Positions 2 to 21,445 of a stretch of DNA of 38,579 nucleotides are shown piece after piece. Under the pieces are notes generated by a model. It searched no databases. It was not told the DNA's origin and saw nothing but the letters and a program-made list of their open reading frames with translations. Every line of letters begins with the position of its first letter. Within the stretch, counting starts at the first letter, position 1. The position numbers were made by a program, and so were the translations under genes. The DNA is from a virus. The stretch covers positions 1 to 38,579 of IMG/VR virus record IMGVR_UViG_3300044621_001223, one strand, 5' to 3'.

Positions 2-685
2 AAGATGGAGCAGTGGGCGAAGTGCGAGTCTGGGCCTCCTGACTCACTTGAGGGTCGCGAATGCTACGTCGGCCTCGATCTGGCTACGACCTACGACACA
101 TCGGCCATGATCGCACTGTTCCCTGCACCGGACGGGACGTTTGACGTACTGTGCCGCTTCTGGATTCCTGGGGATAATGCCCTAGAGCGCGAGCGTCGCG
201 ACGGAGTGCCGTATGCCATCTGGGCGAATACCCCCGAAACTGGCCTCTATATGACCGACGGAAACGTCACGGACTACGACGTAGTGCGGCGTCACATCAA
301 CGAGTTCGGCAAGGTCTACAACGTCAAGCAGATCGCGATTGACCGCTGGAATGCGACGCAACTCAGCCTTCAACTTCAAGCAGATGGGTTCGATGTAGTA
401 GGATTCTCGCAAGGCGTAGGCTCCATGAGCCCTCCGTCGAAGATGCTTGAGAACCTAGTTTTATCTGGCCGGATTCGGCACGGCGGAAACAAAGTTCTCT
501 CGTGGATGGCAGGCAACGTGTCTGTGAAGGTAGACGCGAACGAGAACATCAGGCCGGTGAAGCCGAAGCCGGGGAGTCCGCACAGAATCGACGGAATCGT
601 CAGCCTTATCATGGCAATAGGTTCTTTTTCAGCCAGCCTGAAGCCGAAGCCTGAAGAGCCAGAACCCGGAATGCTGATTCTATGA
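2..685 (+). CDS. terL: Terminase large subunit, C-terminal nuclease part (5' truncated by window edge)
   Basis: This is the nuclease end of the DNA-packaging motor, which cuts concatemeric phage DNA at the prohead. The frame is open to the left edge, so the ATG at 5 is probably internal and the ATPase domain lies upstream. Visible RNase H-like features are the first acidic strand GLDLA (Asp about residue 25 counted from position 5), a middle strand QIAIDRW, the SPPSKMLENL helix typical of TerL, and the last acidic motif HRIDGIVSLIMA. The stop overlaps the portal start as ATGA at 682-685, which indicates translational coupling and the usual terminase-portal order. The family assignment is firm; the exact TerL subfamily is not decidable from the fragment. 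Confidence 0.9.
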   Translation, partial: KMEQWAKCESGPPDSLEGRECYVGLDLATTYDTSAMIALFPAPDGTFDVLCRFWIPGDNALERERRDGVPYAIWANTPETGLYMTDGNVTDYDVVRRHINEFGKVYNVKQIAIDRWNATQLSLQLQADGFDVVGFSQGVGSMSPPSKMLENLVLSGRIRHGGNKVLSWMAGNVSVKVDANENIRPVKPKPGSPHRIDGIVSLIMAIGSFSASLKPKPEEPEPGMLIL

Positions 686-3522
686 TCACCCAGAGCAGGA
701 TCTTGTGGCTCCCCAATGGGGCAGAGGATCGTCACGTTTCGTGGGATGACGTGTCTCCCTCCAGCGCCAGGAACCCGTCTGGCGTTCGCATTGACAGCGA
801 CACTGCACTCCAGAGCACAGTCGTGCTCGCCTGCGCTAGAGTCTTGGCAGAATCGCTCGCCGCGCTTCCGCTGCATCTCTACGAGTATCTCCCTGGCGGC
901 GGAAAGGCTCCAGCAAAGGAGCATCCTCTGTATCGCAGGCTCCATGTCTCACCGAACTCGTGGCAGACTGCCTTCGAGTGGAGGGAGCAGCAGGTTCTCT
1001 GGCTGGCTCTTTGGGGAAACGCATACAACCTTCTAGTCCCTGGTGCTGCGGGCTTCGCGACCGAACTATGGCCTCTGCACCCGAGCCGCATGAAGCCAGA
1101 GCGTATCGAGAACGGACGCATCAGGTACAAGTACCGGGACGAGAATGGTCGCGAAGAAACTTACACTCAAGACCAGATCATGCACATTCGCTGGCTGTCT
1201 GATGACGGCCTCGAAGGAATGGTTCCTGTCGAACTCGCTCGCGACGCGATTGGGCTTGCTCGCGCGTGCGAGATTCACGGAGCACGGTTCTTCGGGAACG
1301 GAGCCCGCCCAGGTTTCGTGCTGACCACCGACAACGACATGAAGCCAGAGGCGGCTTCAATGCTTCGCGATAACTGGGAGCGGATGCACAGAGGCCCGGA
1401 TCGCTCGAATCGAACCGCCGTTCTGTTCGGCGGCCTGAAGCCGCACGAACTCGGGAGTGCGAGCAATCAGGAGTCCCAGTTTCTTGAAACCAGAAGGTTT
1501 CAGATCGAAGAGGTCTGCCGCCTCTATCGTGTTCCTCCTCACCTAGTCGGCGACCTCACGCGTTCTTCGTTCTCGAACATCGAACAGCAGAGCATCGACT
1601 TCGTTCAGCACACTCTGCTCCCGTGGTGTCGTCGCTTCGAGAACGCGTTCGCTAGAGACTTGATCGTCGAGGACGACAAGTATTTTGCAGAGTTCGACAC
1701 TCGCGGACTGCTTCGCGGCGATGCGGCTGCGAGGGCTTCTTACTACTCGTCGATGTACAACCTCGGCGTCGCAAGCATCAACGAGATCCGCTCTTGGGAG
1801 AACCTGAACCCAATCGAAGGCGGCGACCTGCGGTTCGTTCAGTTGAACATGCAGACGCTCGATCAGGCGAACGTCACCGCGACGGCTACGAAGGAGCCAG
1901 AGGCCGAGCCTCAAGTCGAAGAGCAGCCGACCGCAGCAGTCGGCGATCTAGTGGCCCTCGTGGAACAGATCGGCTCCGGTGCGATCACGCCAGATGCCGC
2001 GAAGGCTGCGTTCGCTTCTGTGTTCCCGCAGATGCCAGAGTCTGTCGCAGCCGCGATCATCGAGGGTGCGATCAAAAAGCCGGAGCCTGAGCCGACTGTT
2101 ACGGAACCGATGCCGGAAAAAAATCCGGCAGAGGTTGCGGAACAGCCTGCTCCTGCCCCGGCTGGGAGGTCCCTTTGGCAAGGTTCGCTTCGTGACTCCG
2201 AAGGCCGAAGCCTGACGATCAGCATCGACTTTGACCGCACGTTTGCGGCCGACCCAGAACTCATGGGCGACTTCGCCGCGAAGGCGAAGGCCGATGGCAA
2301 CACGGTCGTAATGATTACGCGGCGGGCTGATACGCCCGAAGACCGCGATTTCATTGAGCAGACGCTTGGCTCCTACGCCGATGCCTTTGATTCCGTGATT
2401 CTGGCTGGCCCAGATACGCAGAAGGAATCCGCCGCGAAGCAGGCTGGCATCAGCGTCGATATCTGGATCGACGACAGCCCGCAGACGATCAAGGAGATTC
2501 GCGGCTTCTGCCCGACCGGCCCCGGCGGCGGGATTGATAACTCTTGCGGCAAGGAAGGCGGCGGCGGCTCGGTCGCGGCAGTCGGAGACACGCTGAAGCG
2601 AAAGGACGTTCAGGTCGGCCAGACGATCTCGGTTCAGAAGCACGGCCAGCAGAAAGTCCACAACGGAGTTGTCACGGGAGTCAAGCATGAGGCCGCAGTC
2701 TCTGAGATCACGCTGAAAGACGCAGACGGCAACGAGACAACGATCCGAATCAGGAATCTCGCACAGATTCGTGAGGCTAACCTCGGCGACTCAGGGAAGA
2801 TAAGAGAGCCATCTGAAAAGAAAGGGCCGAATCCTGGCAAGACCAAGACAATTCAGGAGGTCCCGGAGAAGCCGACCGGAGGAAGCAAGAAAGAACGCGA
2901 ACGCTTCCGGCAGGAAGTGAAGGATTTCTGTGCATCTCATGGAGTTAGCGTCGAAGACTCGTTCTCTGTAGGCAGGCAAGGCTCAACAATCGACTCGCTT
3001 CATGAGGTCGCCGTTGGAGTGAACAGGCTCGTGAAGAGCGGCCAGGAGCCGCCTCCAGTAATCGTCATGACTAGGCCACAGAAAGGCCACATGGGATACT
3101 TCAGTCCGCATCGCCCGGACGCAATCTTCGTGAACGCGAGGCTGCCTGCCGGAGAACCGCAGGGTTCCATCAACAACGGGTTTCTTGCCGGAACCGGCAG
3201 TTCAGGAAGAGGGACTATCATCGTTCACGAAAACGCACACCGACTGCATCAGGCCGCTGTCGGGGAACAAGAGTTCAGGAGGTTCCCTCGGATTCAGCCT
3301 CGCGGCGGAACCACTCTTTCGTTCAGGGACCACCAGGTCGCAGGCCAGGTAAGCAGGTACGCGCAGACCTGCGAAGTCGAGTTCGTTGCCGAAACGTATT
3401 CAGGTCACGTTGCTGGCAGGAGATACAGCGACGATGTATATACTCTGTACAACCGACTCGGCGGCCCGAGGCTCCGAGAGGTCAAGTTCACGAAGAGCGG
3501 CAAGGTCAAGGTCAAAAACTAA
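682..3522 (+). CDS. Portal protein fused to HAD-like phosphatase and HExxH metallopeptidase domains
   Basis: Residues 1 to about 400 look like an HK97-family portal, the dodecameric ring through which DNA enters the head (for example SSFSNIEQQSIDFV near residue 295). A Pro/Glu-rich linker follows. A HAD-like domain at about 508-605 has DFDRTF (Asp516, Asp518), VMITRR, the Lys of KESAAK and WIDDSP (Asp597, Asp598), which is the full set of HAD phosphatase motifs. Next is a Gly-rich linker, CPTGPGGGIDNSC (from about 610), then a small beta-rich segment. A zincin-like C-terminal domain has IVHENAHRLHQ (His849, Glu850, His853) and a downstream EVEFVAE that could give the third ligand. At 946 residues it is about twice the usual portal length. 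The portal call is firm; the fused activities are inferred from motifs. Confidence 0.88.
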   Translation: MITQSRILWLPNGAEDRHVSWDDVSPSSARNPSGVRIDSDTALQSTVVLACARVLAESLAALPLHLYEYLPGGGKAPAKEHPLYRRLHVSPNSWQTAFEWREQQVLWLALWGNAYNLLVPGAAGFATELWPLHPSRMKPERIENGRIRYKYRDENGREETYTQDQIMHIRWLSDDGLEGMVPVELARDAIGLARACEIHGARFFGNGARPGFVLTTDNDMKPEAASMLRDNWERMHRGPDRSNRTAVLFGGLKPHELGSASNQESQFLETRRFQIEEVCRLYRVPPHLVGDLTRSSFSNIEQQSIDFVQHTLLPWCRRFENAFARDLIVEDDKYFAEFDTRGLLRGDAAARASYYSSMYNLGVASINEIRSWENLNPIEGGDLRFVQLNMQTLDQANVTATATKEPEAEPQVEEQPTAAVGDLVALVEQIGSGAITPDAAKAAFASVFPQMPESVAAAIIEGAIKKPEPEPTVTEPMPEKNPAEVAEQPAPAPAGRSLWQGSLRDSEGRSLTISIDFDRTFAADPELMGDFAAKAKADGNTVVMITRRADTPEDRDFIEQTLGSYADAFDSVILAGPDTQKESAAKQAGISVDIWIDDSPQTIKEIRGFCPTGPGGGIDNSCGKEGGGGSVAAVGDTLKRKDVQVGQTISVQKHGQQKVHNGVVTGVKHEAAVSEITLKDADGNETTIRIRNLAQIREANLGDSGKIREPSEKKGPNPGKTKTIQEVPEKPTGGSKKERERFRQEVKDFCASHGVSVEDSFSVGRQGSTIDSLHEVAVGVNRLVKSGQEPPPVIVMTRPQKGHMGYFSPHRPDAIFVNARLPAGEPQGSINNGFLAGTGSSGRGTIIVHENAHRLHQAAVGEQEFRRFPRIQPRGGTTLSFRDHQVAGQVSRYAQTCEVEFVAETYSGHVAGRRYSDDVYTLYNRLGGPRLREVKFTKSGKVKVKN

Positions 3523-3534
3523 GGAGACTCTGCG

Positions 3535-3702
3535 ATGACAATGTTCGCTGAAAGCGATTACAACTCAGAAGAGCACGCGAGACTCATAGACCAAATGCTT
3601 GGAAAGAAGCCGCCAGAAAACGAGATCAACCTGATCGAAGGGGTTGATGACGACGCCGTCACGCTCGACGCACTGCCCCCTGACGATGAAGAGAAGAAAT
3701 AA
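3535..3702 (+). CDS. Small acidic protein of unknown function (55 aa)
   Basis: A short gene between portal and protease. It starts at an ATG preceded by AAGGAG (3520-3525) and ends TAATG, overlapping the next start by one base. The product is strongly acidic towards the C-terminus (VDDDAVTLDALPPDDEEKK) with no membrane segment. I do not recognise the family. Position and coupling suggest an accessory head protein, but no function can be assigned. Confidence 0.65.
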   Translation: MTMFAESDYNSEEHARLIDQMLGKKPPENEINLIEGVDDDAVTLDALPPDDEEKK

Positions 3703-4811
3703 TGCCGTTGCGCACTGAAAGCGACGCTGGATATACCGTCGGTATATCGGCGAGCGCAGATCCAAAGTCCACGCACAGAGTGTCGTCGGAGCCGGAGTCT
3801 CGGGCAGAGAAGTACGACCACATCAACTTCAAGCCTCCATCTGGGGTACGCTCCGAGGCGCAGCGTGGACTCGACTGGCGCAGTGAGTTCGGGCGTGGCG
3901 GGACAAGCATCGGGATCGCCAGGGCTCGCGACTTGAGCAACGGTTCGCAGATCAGCCCCGAGACTGCTCGCCGCATGAAGGCTTTCTTTGATCGGCATCA
4001 GTCTGATAAAAATGCAGAAGGCTGGAGCCCAGGAGAGAAGGGGTTCCCGTCCAACGGTCGCATCGCTCACGCCCTCTGGGGCGGCGATGCCGGATACGCA
4101 TGGTCACGAAAACTGGTGAGGCAGATGAACGCTGCTGACGAGCGGAGCCACGAAATGCAAATCGAAACGCGATCGCTATGCCTCAACGACGACGAGTCGT
4201 TCCCGCTGCTCAAGATCGAACGTCGCTGCTGCGAAGAGCGGGCCGACGGCCCCGAAGAGAACTGGCTCGTTGGCTACGCTGCCCGCTTCGGTGTGAACTC
4301 GCTCAAGATGGACGACTTCTATGAGCGGATCGACCCGAGTGCGTTCAGCATCGTGACCGAGCGTCGCGGCCGCAAGTCGCCGCTGGAAACTCGGGCTCTG
4401 TTCAACCACGACCCGAACCACGTTCTCGGGCGGTTTCCCAGCACGCTTCGCATGAAGGTCGATGAGCATGGACTTCGCTACGAGATCAAGATGCCGGAGA
4501 CTCGCAGCGATTTGATCGAGAGCATCGAGAGGGGCGATATCCGTGGCTCAAGTTTCTCGTTCATTGTTTCGCCTGGCGGCGAAGAGTGGTCTGTCGAAGA
4601 GGGCCGCTCGATTCGCACCGTGAAGTCCATCGCTTCGCTGATCGACGTCGGGCCGGTCACGTTCCCGGCCTACCCTGACGCGAGCGTCGCCGTGGCTCGC
4701 AGGTCTTACGGCGAGTTCATGAGCGGCCGCACTCAACGTTCTGCGGAGGTCGCAGTGATTCGGCAGCGTAAGGCCGAGATCGAGAAGTTCCTTCGCGAGC
4801 GAGGCCGATGA
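3702..4811 (+). CDS. HK97-type prohead protease with extra N-terminal domain
   Basis: The serine protease that processes the capsid protein during head maturation. The protease fold occupies about residues 155-340. The catalytic His is likely His236 in FNHDPNHVLGR and the catalytic Ser is Ser284 in RGSSFSF; the strand VGPVTFPAYPDA is typical of the family. Residues 35-147 form a separate N-terminal domain (YDHINFKPPSGVR, IARARDLSNG, ALWGGDAGYAW) seen in many environmental phage proteins but not in classical HK97 gp4, and its role is unknown to me. The gene starts in a TAATG overlap with the small upstream gene and ends in an ATGA overlap with the zinc ribbon gene. The capsid gene follows, as expected. 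Confidence 0.9.
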   Translation: MPLRTESDAGYTVGISASADPKSTHRVSSEPESRAEKYDHINFKPPSGVRSEAQRGLDWRSEFGRGGTSIGIARARDLSNGSQISPETARRMKAFFDRHQSDKNAEGWSPGEKGFPSNGRIAHALWGGDAGYAWSRKLVRQMNAADERSHEMQIETRSLCLNDDESFPLLKIERRCCEERADGPEENWLVGYAARFGVNSLKMDDFYERIDPSAFSIVTERRGRKSPLETRALFNHDPNHVLGRFPSTLRMKVDEHGLRYEIKMPETRSDLIESIERGDIRGSSFSFIVSPGGEEWSVEEGRSIRTVKSIASLIDVGPVTFPAYPDASVAVARRSYGEFMSGRTQRSAEVAVIRQRKAEIEKFLRERGR

Positions 4812-5087: not shown

Positions 5088-6458
5088 GTGGCCGCCTCGC
5101 AAGTCAAGATGCTTCTCGATGAACTCGCCAAGGTGCTCGCCGAGATGGGCGCGATGGAAGACACTTCCGCCGAGGGCGAAGAGGGCGGCGAGCCCATGAG
5201 CGAGGAGCAGGAGGCGTCCCTTCGGTCGCTCGCCGAGAAGGCCGACAAACTGAAGGAGCGGATCGCGTTTCACGAGAAGATTGCCGAGAAGGAGAAGGAA
5301 CTGCGTGCCGTCCTTGAGCGTTCCGCTCCTGCGAAGGCCATCGAAACCCCCGAGCAGAAGAAGGAGAACGCCGTGGAGAGCCGACAGTACGCGATCCCGA
5401 AGAGCGGCCGGACGCTCAAGGCGTTCAAGGGTCCCGATGCCGAGGAGCGGGCTTACCGTGCCGGAATGCACCTCCGTGCTCACACGTTCGGCGATCGCGA
5501 GGCTCGCCGGTGGTGCGAGGATCACGGCGTCGAGTCGCGAGCCCAGGCTTCGGGCGTGAACTCGCTCGGCGGCGCTCTCGTCAGCGACGAACTGATGAGC
5601 GAGATCATCCGGCTCGTCGAGGAGTACGGTGCGTTCCCGCAGTACGCCCGCCGGATGCCGATGTCCACCGACACGATGGTCGTAGCCCGCCGGACGGCCG
5701 GCCTCGCCGCTCGCCCGATCGGCGAGAACAGTGAGCCTGCAACCAGCGATGTGACGTTCGACAACGTCGAACTGAACGCGAAGATCTGGGGCATCGCGAA
5801 TCGGGTTCCGAATTCGCTGCTCGAGGATTCGGTCATCAACCTCGCCGACCTCATGGCGACGGAAGTGGCCCAGTCTTTTGCAGTCGCGTTCGACGACTCG
5901 GGCTTCATCGGCGACGGCACGAGTGCCTACCACGGCACGACTGGCGTCTGCACGAAGATCCTGGAGTCGGCGTTCTCGAAGTCGGTCGTGTCGGCTGCGG
6001 CCGGCAACCCGACGTTCGACACGCTCGACCTCACCGACTTCACGAACGTCGTGGCCCGCCTCCCGGTGTACGCTCGGCGTGCTGCCGCGTGGTATATCTC
6101 TCCGGCCGGCTACGGCTCCTCGATGCTTCGGCTCGCGATGTCGGCTGGCGGCGTCTCGACGCAGAACATCGAAGGTGGCTTCGGGAACACGTTCCTCGGC
6201 TACCCCGTCCGTCTCGTTCACTCCATGGAGTCGAACCTCACCGGCACCACCGGAAAGGTTCTGGCCCTCTTCGGTGATCTCGCTCAGGCTGCCACCTTCG
6301 GTGAGCGGCGTGGCGTGAGCATCAAGACTGCCAGCGAGCGATACATCGAGTACGATCAGACGCTGACCTTCGCGACCACTCGCGTCGCGATGGTGGTGCA
6401 TGATCTCGGCTCGACGACCGTCGCCGGCCCGATTGTCGCCCTCCGTGGCACGACCTGA
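5088..6458 (+). CDS. Major capsid protein, HK97 fold, with N-terminal scaffolding (delta) region
   Basis: The main shell protein (456 aa). I chose the GTG at 5088 because AGGAGC stands 7 bases upstream and the N-terminus then begins directly with the helical scaffold. Residues 1 to about 100 are charged and coiled-coil-like, as in HK97-type delta domains removed by the protease two genes upstream. The remainder has the expected pattern: SLGGALVSDELMSEII at the start of the mature part, ARRMPM, WGIANRVPNSLLEDS, and a C-terminal GYPVRLVHSM with ALFGDLAQAATFGERRG near the P-domain. There is one copy, with strongly GC-biased codons as expected for a highly expressed gene. The cleavage site is not determined from the sequence. 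Confidence 0.93.
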   Translation: MAASQVKMLLDELAKVLAEMGAMEDTSAEGEEGGEPMSEEQEASLRSLAEKADKLKERIAFHEKIAEKEKELRAVLERSAPAKAIETPEQKKENAVESRQYAIPKSGRTLKAFKGPDAEERAYRAGMHLRAHTFGDREARRWCEDHGVESRAQASGVNSLGGALVSDELMSEIIRLVEEYGAFPQYARRMPMSTDTMVVARRTAGLAARPIGENSEPATSDVTFDNVELNAKIWGIANRVPNSLLEDSVINLADLMATEVAQSFAVAFDDSGFIGDGTSAYHGTTGVCTKILESAFSKSVVSAAAGNPTFDTLDLTDFTNVVARLPVYARRAAAWYISPAGYGSSMLRLAMSAGGVSTQNIEGGFGNTFLGYPVRLVHSMESNLTGTTGKVLALFGDLAQAATFGERRGVSIKTASERYIEYDQTLTFATTRVAMVVHDLGSTTVAGPIVALRGTT

Positions 6459-21417: not shown

Positions 21418-21445
21418 TTGCACCAAATGGCCGATATGCTAATAT
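21418..21445 (+). promoter_or_regulatory. Promoter of leader cassette 1 (AAA+ operon)
   Basis: CTATTGCACC contains the -35 box TTGCAC (21418-21423). TAATAT at 21440-21445 follows after 16 bases. The same ATTGCAC or ATTGCCC start occurs at the promoters at 25233 and 27265. The DNA before it (21317-21417) is very GC-rich with a stray TATAAATAG, and I see no gene there. Confidence 0.6.

Follow-up and report, generated by a model that had tools for sequence, protein, structure and literature searches.

A phage portal with a fused HAD domain carries an exchangeable zincin-like cargo behind a conserved Cys-Gly peptide

The virus record IMGVR_UViG_3300044621_001223 (38.6 kb; its whole length of 38,579 nucleotides is called the window, and all positions and residue numbers refer to it) contains a plus-strand open reading frame (ORF) at 682–3522 that encodes, in a single ATG-to-stop frame of 946 codons, a portal, a HAD phosphatase-like domain, a short Cys-Gly junction peptide, a small Tudor-like barrel and a zincin metallopeptidase-like domain. 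Comparison with related viral loci indicates that the zincin is an exchangeable cargo, swapped for ADP-ribosyltransferase (ART) domains exactly at the junction peptide. An earlier note, made from the DNA alone, had described one continuous frame joining a portal, a HAD phosphatase and a zinc metallopeptidase, and the residues it named all lie in place (D516/D518, T546 of VMIT, K581, D597/D598, HENAH at 849–853 and EVEFVAE at 898–904). Its observation that HAD and zincin occupy one portal chain holds; the two extra domains are, however, no peculiarity of the window phage, the HAD domain being fixed in the lineage and the zincin exchangeable. The conserved junction peptide at residues 605–622 had been overlooked.

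The zincin is a separate gene in relatives, as might be expected if an assembly or frameshift artefact had fused separate genes in the window, and the earlier note had itself raised a sequencing error that joins two frames. Such an artefact is extremely improbable, because the identical 946-aa chain (100%) is found in two other IMG/VR contigs (3300044631_000523 and 3300042905_004845; L002/L003 in our numbering of loci) and the same fusion, with a cargo 55–61% identical, recurs in a diverged lineage (3300042383_000439 and 3300042555_002466; L009, L010).

The N-terminal part of the chain is an HK97-type portal, as had been proposed (residues 25–411, positions 754–1914; phrog_12 over 25–411, E 7e-119); PF04860 matches residues 47–374 at E 5e-110 and 368 bits, above its cut-off of 39. 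A Pro/Glu/Ala-rich linker, recognised by its composition and without convincing family match (residues 412–495, positions 1915–2166), leads to the HAD domain (residues 508–604, positions 2203–2493). A Pfam search of this region gave no convincing match; among PHROGs it falls with two families that have no assigned function (phrog_4919, E 5e-15; phrog_4256, E 3e-13). Across 26 relatives, aligned after removal of three false rows and then used for modelling, D516, D518, K581, D597 and D598 are invariant and motif II is Thr or Ser. The core of the AlphaFold2 model has a predicted local distance difference test (pLDDT) score above 90, and its nearest fold is the T4 Pnkp 3′-phosphatase (Z 10.2, root-mean-square deviation (rmsd) 3.1 over 96 residues), followed by MDP-1, AphA (Z 8.1) and others. 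Foldseek alone gave a best E of 1.5e-3, and the T4 Pnkp family was reached by sequence at E 0.005 only (phrog_415). With T4 polynucleotide kinase 3′-phosphatase and class B acid phosphatases the domain has in common the core fold of the HAD superfamily and its four motifs; it differs in having no kinase domain and in being fused to a portal. We infer that it is probably a phosphatase of DNA or RNA ends, or of nucleotides, active at the portal vertex.

A search with the HAD domain alone yielded at least 80 viral loci; because these were selected by similarity to this HAD, they describe the lineage of the window, not portals generally. In nearly all of the best 80, from freshwater phages, the HAD lies in frame behind the portal, and the few loci without this frame are contigs that end before the portal. 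HAD is therefore a fixed trait of the portal across a group of freshwater phages, and these portals are mostly without further cargo: neither junction peptide nor cargo is present in 55 of the 63 portal-HAD loci with enough downstream sequence, and most such portals stop soon after HAD.

The junction peptide, EIRGFCPTGPGGGIDNSCG (residues 605–623, positions 2494–2550), directly follows the HAD domain and is predicted to be disordered in the AlphaFold2 models. The stretch contains RGFCPTGPGGGIDNSCG, and its signature, derived from a sequence logo and pattern scans, is E-x-R-[AG]-F-C-[PA]-T-G-x-G-G-G-[IV]-D-N-S-C (residues 605–622), which occurs once in the whole window. Viral contigs were scanned with three patterns that fixed different parts, all of which gave the same signature; such searches bias the positions fixed in any one scan, and the two half-scans correct most of this bias. 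The second-half scan returned 138 distinct instances, all of which (138/138) contain both Cys residues and the first Gly, with Thr in 134, Arg in 130 and Glu in 108. The first-half scan gave full copies in 107 of 172 rows, together with variants such as GNGIDNSC, GGGVKNDC and GGGIENTC; the remaining rows have no second Cys and look like chance matches. In 92 contexts with flanks less than 40% alike, the signature has sharp edges, and a Gly/Ser-rich linker comes after it. The peptide was found 0 times in 3.66 M residues of shuffled sequence, its exact pattern in 0 of ~85,000 bacterial and archaeal genomes, and its strings were not found in open-licence PMC text. A match in Gordonia BaxterFox (E 5) runs antisense to an annotated gene and was dismissed.

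The border of exchange is visible at locus L004, whose portal is 97% identical to that of the window over the 117 aa before the peptide and unalignable after it. The gene next to this portal encodes a stand-alone zincin, which begins with its own short leader and junction peptide, and is 79% identical to the window chain over the 242 aa after the peptide and unalignable before it. Since identity breaks at the junction peptide in both comparisons, we place the exchange point there. The same portal-HAD core carries the zincin in the window and L010, a DRAT-like ART in L004 (E 3e-4) and L200 (E 6e-5), where neither match reaches the Pfam cut-off, and in L124 an ADPrib_exo_Tox ART that is matched clearly (E 2e-12). 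The coincidence of these breakpoints with the peptide would also fit conservation as DNA, for instance as a recombination site that moves cargo cassettes and has no role in the protein, and four-fold third positions are slightly more alike in the peptide than in its flanks (0.43 vs 0.33). We regard this as very unlikely: the peptide codons vary, all synonymous codons being used, and mean DNA identity is 73% against near-total amino-acid identity.

After the HAD domain, the window chain continues with a disordered stretch, the Tudor/SH3-like barrel (residues ~636–691, positions 2587–2754; strands at 42–85 of the model) and the zincin (residues ~729–946, positions 2866–3519). Compared with Tudor domains, the barrel model gives Z ~6 and rmsd 2.0–2.5 over ~50 residues, a modest Z for a small domain. 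Fifty zincin relatives share the signature H-E-x-x-H-x-x-H, V-x-x-Y and E-F-x-A-E, with seven invariant residues: H849, E850, H853 and H856 in HENAHRLH (HExxHxxH, residues 849–856, positions 3226–3249), and Y893, E900 and E904 in the segment that spans Y893 and EVEFVAE 898–904 (positions 3358–3393). The metal ligands are assigned by analogy with other zincins that have HExxH and a downstream Tyr and Glu, E900 being the presumed third zinc ligand. The closest structure to the zincin model (pLDDT ~95) is the protease domain of lethal factor (rmsd 4.2 over 176, Z 9.9), with PPEP-1 below it (Z 6.9). AlphaFold2 therefore predicts both a HAD and a zincin fold at the residues for which the earlier note had proposed them, in agreement with the family matches of the former and the invariant residues of both. 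Sequence searches of the PDB returned weak matches only.

Foldseek alone found no significant match of the zincin model in the PDB, and the Pfam ATLF profile gave no match to the window protein at E ≤ 1, and hence none at its curated cut-off. For these two reasons we call the domain M34-like, by its predicted lethal-factor/PPEP fold, without assigning it to that family. It resembles the lethal-factor protease domain and PPEP-1 in fold, in HExxH and in the downstream Tyr...Glu arrangement; it differs from these M34-like zincins in an extra invariant third His (HExxHxxH) and in sitting on a phage head protein.

The zincin family of the window is also found at the end of lambda-type portals of ~1050 aa, in MuF proteins and as separate genes in other phages. 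The lambda-type set (L254–L318, e.g. L254:2376-5522) comprises PF05136-type portals of ~1050–1170 aa that end in the same zincin, have no junction peptide and contain a phrog_2859 domain in mid-chain; four of these portals were checked by profile and the others by length and layout. Judged on this basis, they are an independent portal-zincin fusion. In L134 (1-8753) and L324, four zincin ORFs stand in tandem between the portal and the S78 protease, a portal-zincin fusion among them, and a HAD domain also occurs there as cargo, preceded by its own junction peptide.

In all loci gathered, 351 copies of the junction peptide were counted in 217 ORFs, 79 of which have two to five copies. Every copy precedes a domain-sized segment: the gaps between copies (n = 134) are all at least 122 aa, and the last copy is followed by at least 86 aa (median 335) in the 156 ORFs that are complete at the 3′ end. 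Before the peptide, the recognisable segments are portals and S78 prohead proteases, one or the other being identified in 101 of 226 motif ORF entries; among these entries, no recognised terminase large subunit (TerL) or major capsid protein (MCP) ORF carries the peptide. After the peptide, matches are to ART-PolyVal, ADPrib_exo_Tox, DRAT, Ntox46, zeta toxin, GNAT, Mu F and zincins, and most segments there belong to no known family. The gene order in motif loci is TerL, portal, cargo or polyprotein, S78 protease and MCP. In 42 ORFs the peptide stands behind a short leader only, 12–67 residues separating the upstream stop from the peptide. Polyproteins of ~2000–2500 aa lie between portal and prohead protease in L090 (2432-9214), L119 (2313-8180) and L197 (2789-10435), with three to five junction peptides each and almost no known domains.

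We consider these observations best explained by a portal-HAD carrier that takes an exchangeable cargo into the head, from which it is released at the peptide and delivered to the host, and we give this explanation as a whole somewhat better than an even chance. The portal, with its lineage-fixed HAD, bears one exchangeable effector-type cargo, here the Tudor-like barrel and the M34-like metallopeptidase. The portal C-terminus faces the inner side of the vertex, so the cargo would ride into the prohead on ~12 portal subunits. The short Cys-Gly peptide marks the border between carrier and cargo and would most likely act as a recognition site, one per cargo domain, at which the cargo is set free while the head matures or at ejection; the enzyme would then pass into the host together with the DNA and cleave host proteins at an early stage of infection. 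The peptide occurs once per domain, on stand-alone as well as on fused cargo, which favours a per-domain function such as release over a simple linker or a lone targeting signal. Nearly as likely as release is a role in targeting or as a disulfide loop. We read the peptide as a modular cargo-loading junction inside the head and probably a release site.

Several observations weigh against this explanation. The capsid protein has no junction peptide, and the S78 protease is present in most motif-less relatives too, so S78, which we considered as the obvious cutter and set aside also in view of the 55 portal-HAD loci without peptide or cargo, is not obviously the enzyme that cuts it. No dedicated cutter was found in the loci gathered. 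The junction peptide also exceeds prohead-protease sites, as far as these are known, in length and in strictness of conservation. The lambda-type portals bear the same zincin without the peptide, so the peptide is not required for portal-borne cargo and the zincin is not its dedicated cutter; zincin and peptide each occur without the other. With the few seeds used, no carrier could be assigned to about half of the motif ORF entries. Finally, the two invariant Cys residues suggest a loop, a metal site or a disulfide as much as a cleavage site.

These Cys residues and the Gly-rich loop would suit a peptide that is never cut and serves as a docking, packaging or disulfide-loop element, holding each cargo within the prohead core much as a capsid-targeting sequence would; the 42 cargo ORFs with a short leader recall short N-terminal head-protein propeptides (PMC10052503). 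A portal or prohead protease needs no added tag to enter the prohead, and the arrays repeat the peptide in front of every domain instead of using a single copy for the chain; we hold this reading less likely than not. The absence of the peptide from lambda-type portals with a C-terminal zincin, together with the persistence of HAD on the portal in most cargo-free relatives, would also fit a chain that stays whole, the portal permanently displaying HAD and zincin at the vertex for assembly, packaging or DNA ejection. Here we are doubtful, since the zincin is swapped for unrelated ART domains and also occurs as a separate gene, which is unexpected for an integral part of the vertex. Similarly improbable is that the zincin is a maturation protease for head proteins or for these fusions and not a delivered effector. 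The zincin adjoins the prohead protease gene, and PMC5512222 proposes that zincins process virion polyproteins as parts of polyvalent proteins; on the other side, the phage already has S78, the examined parts of the motif-rich contigs L090, L094 and L119 gave no zincin match, and the zincin-bearing lambda-type portals have no peptide.

Delivery by the portal-HAD carrier would extend a published principle. Enzymes fused to portal, MuF or prohead protease, and their injection, have been proposed by Iyer and colleagues (PMC5512222, PMC9503650), and for MuF toxins by Jamet and colleagues (PMC5576092), which agrees with the earlier note's mention of portals or MuF-like proteins with C-terminal effector domains. 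Polyvalent proteins (Iyer et al. 2017, PMC5512222) are likewise multi-domain, with ARTs, zincins, other effectors and MuF/portal fusions, and the text available compares their zincins to lethal factor and proposes packaging and injection; the same text does not describe the junction peptide, the portal-HAD core or the exchange pattern. The window protein itself has HAD and zincin and matched no curated polyvalent profile, ART-PolyVal and arrays being found in motif-bearing relatives. The head-protein fusions with Nudix or ART share the same three carriers and enzymes presumed to be injected, whereas neither a junction peptide common to them nor a chain of portal, HAD and zincin is described in the portions of PMC9503650 available. 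Polymorphic toxins of the MuF type (Jamet et al. 2017, PMC5576092) also combine a head protein, adjoining the portal, with a variable C-terminal toxin domain. In contrast to these, the portal ORF of the window is followed on the plus strand, at 3702, by the S78 protease gene instead of a small immunity-type ORF, and no matching prophage was found in the genomes searched for the window system; the MuF domain PF04233 is absent from the window protein by Pfam and PHROG profile searches. T4 Alt, internal proteins and capsid-targeting propeptides, and the ejection proteins of SPN3US, are further cases of head-packed proteins that enter the host, with N-terminal propeptides removed by the prohead protease (PMC10052503); the junction peptide is unrelated to these and much longer, and its cargo is often C-terminal on a portal or protease. 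The carrier-plus-effector principle is thus already published, and the junction peptide, its use in arrays, the portal-HAD core and this combination appear to be new.

On the plus strand, the window encodes a terminase, portal, prohead protease, capsid protein, tape measure, helicases and primase. The ORF is preceded by a partial terminase large subunit (5–685; phrog_2699, E 1e-61) and followed by the S78 prohead serine protease (3702–4811; PF04586, E 3e-33), which has no junction peptide in this phage, and the major capsid protein (5088–6458; phrog_10, E 2e-43). The protease has an N-terminal phrog_2859 domain, of the family that sits inside the lambda-type portals. An ATPase at 21418–23643 matches a 'porphyrin biosynthesis' PHROG and adjoins a phrog_1909 protein, with which it possibly forms a cobaltochelatase-like pair.

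No isolate phage matched over 80% of the window protein, and the 30 best matches listed reach the portal only. In the host-genome search, the sole close portal-HAD relatives were L351 and L352, which are syntenic with the window and binned in Planctomycetota/Phycisphaerales metagenome-assembled genomes (MAGs); L352 has its HAD in a frame of its own directly after the portal, in a stretch that holds masked bases. A third match, in an Acidimicrobiia MAG, is a distant HAD and not a close relative. Because viral contigs can be misbinned, we treat Planctomycetota/Phycisphaerales as a lead to the host only.

The loading of enzymes into phage heads and their release are known for few models (T4, N4, P1). 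In uncultured aquatic phages, perhaps of Planctomycetota, one Cys-Gly peptide might be a shared address-and-release code for enzyme arrays carried on the portal, the prohead protease and the polyproteins between them, and freed in the host, which would amount to a modular injection system within the capsid, a tentative idea that we hold with less than even confidence. The borders between carrier and cargo in hundreds of head-region proteins bear a single 17-residue signature, which allows cargo to be listed across metagenomes by one pattern, and the choice between release and targeting is testable with one peptide. The portal-HAD core raises a new question, the reason for which a phosphatase-like domain is fused to the DNA gate of these phages.

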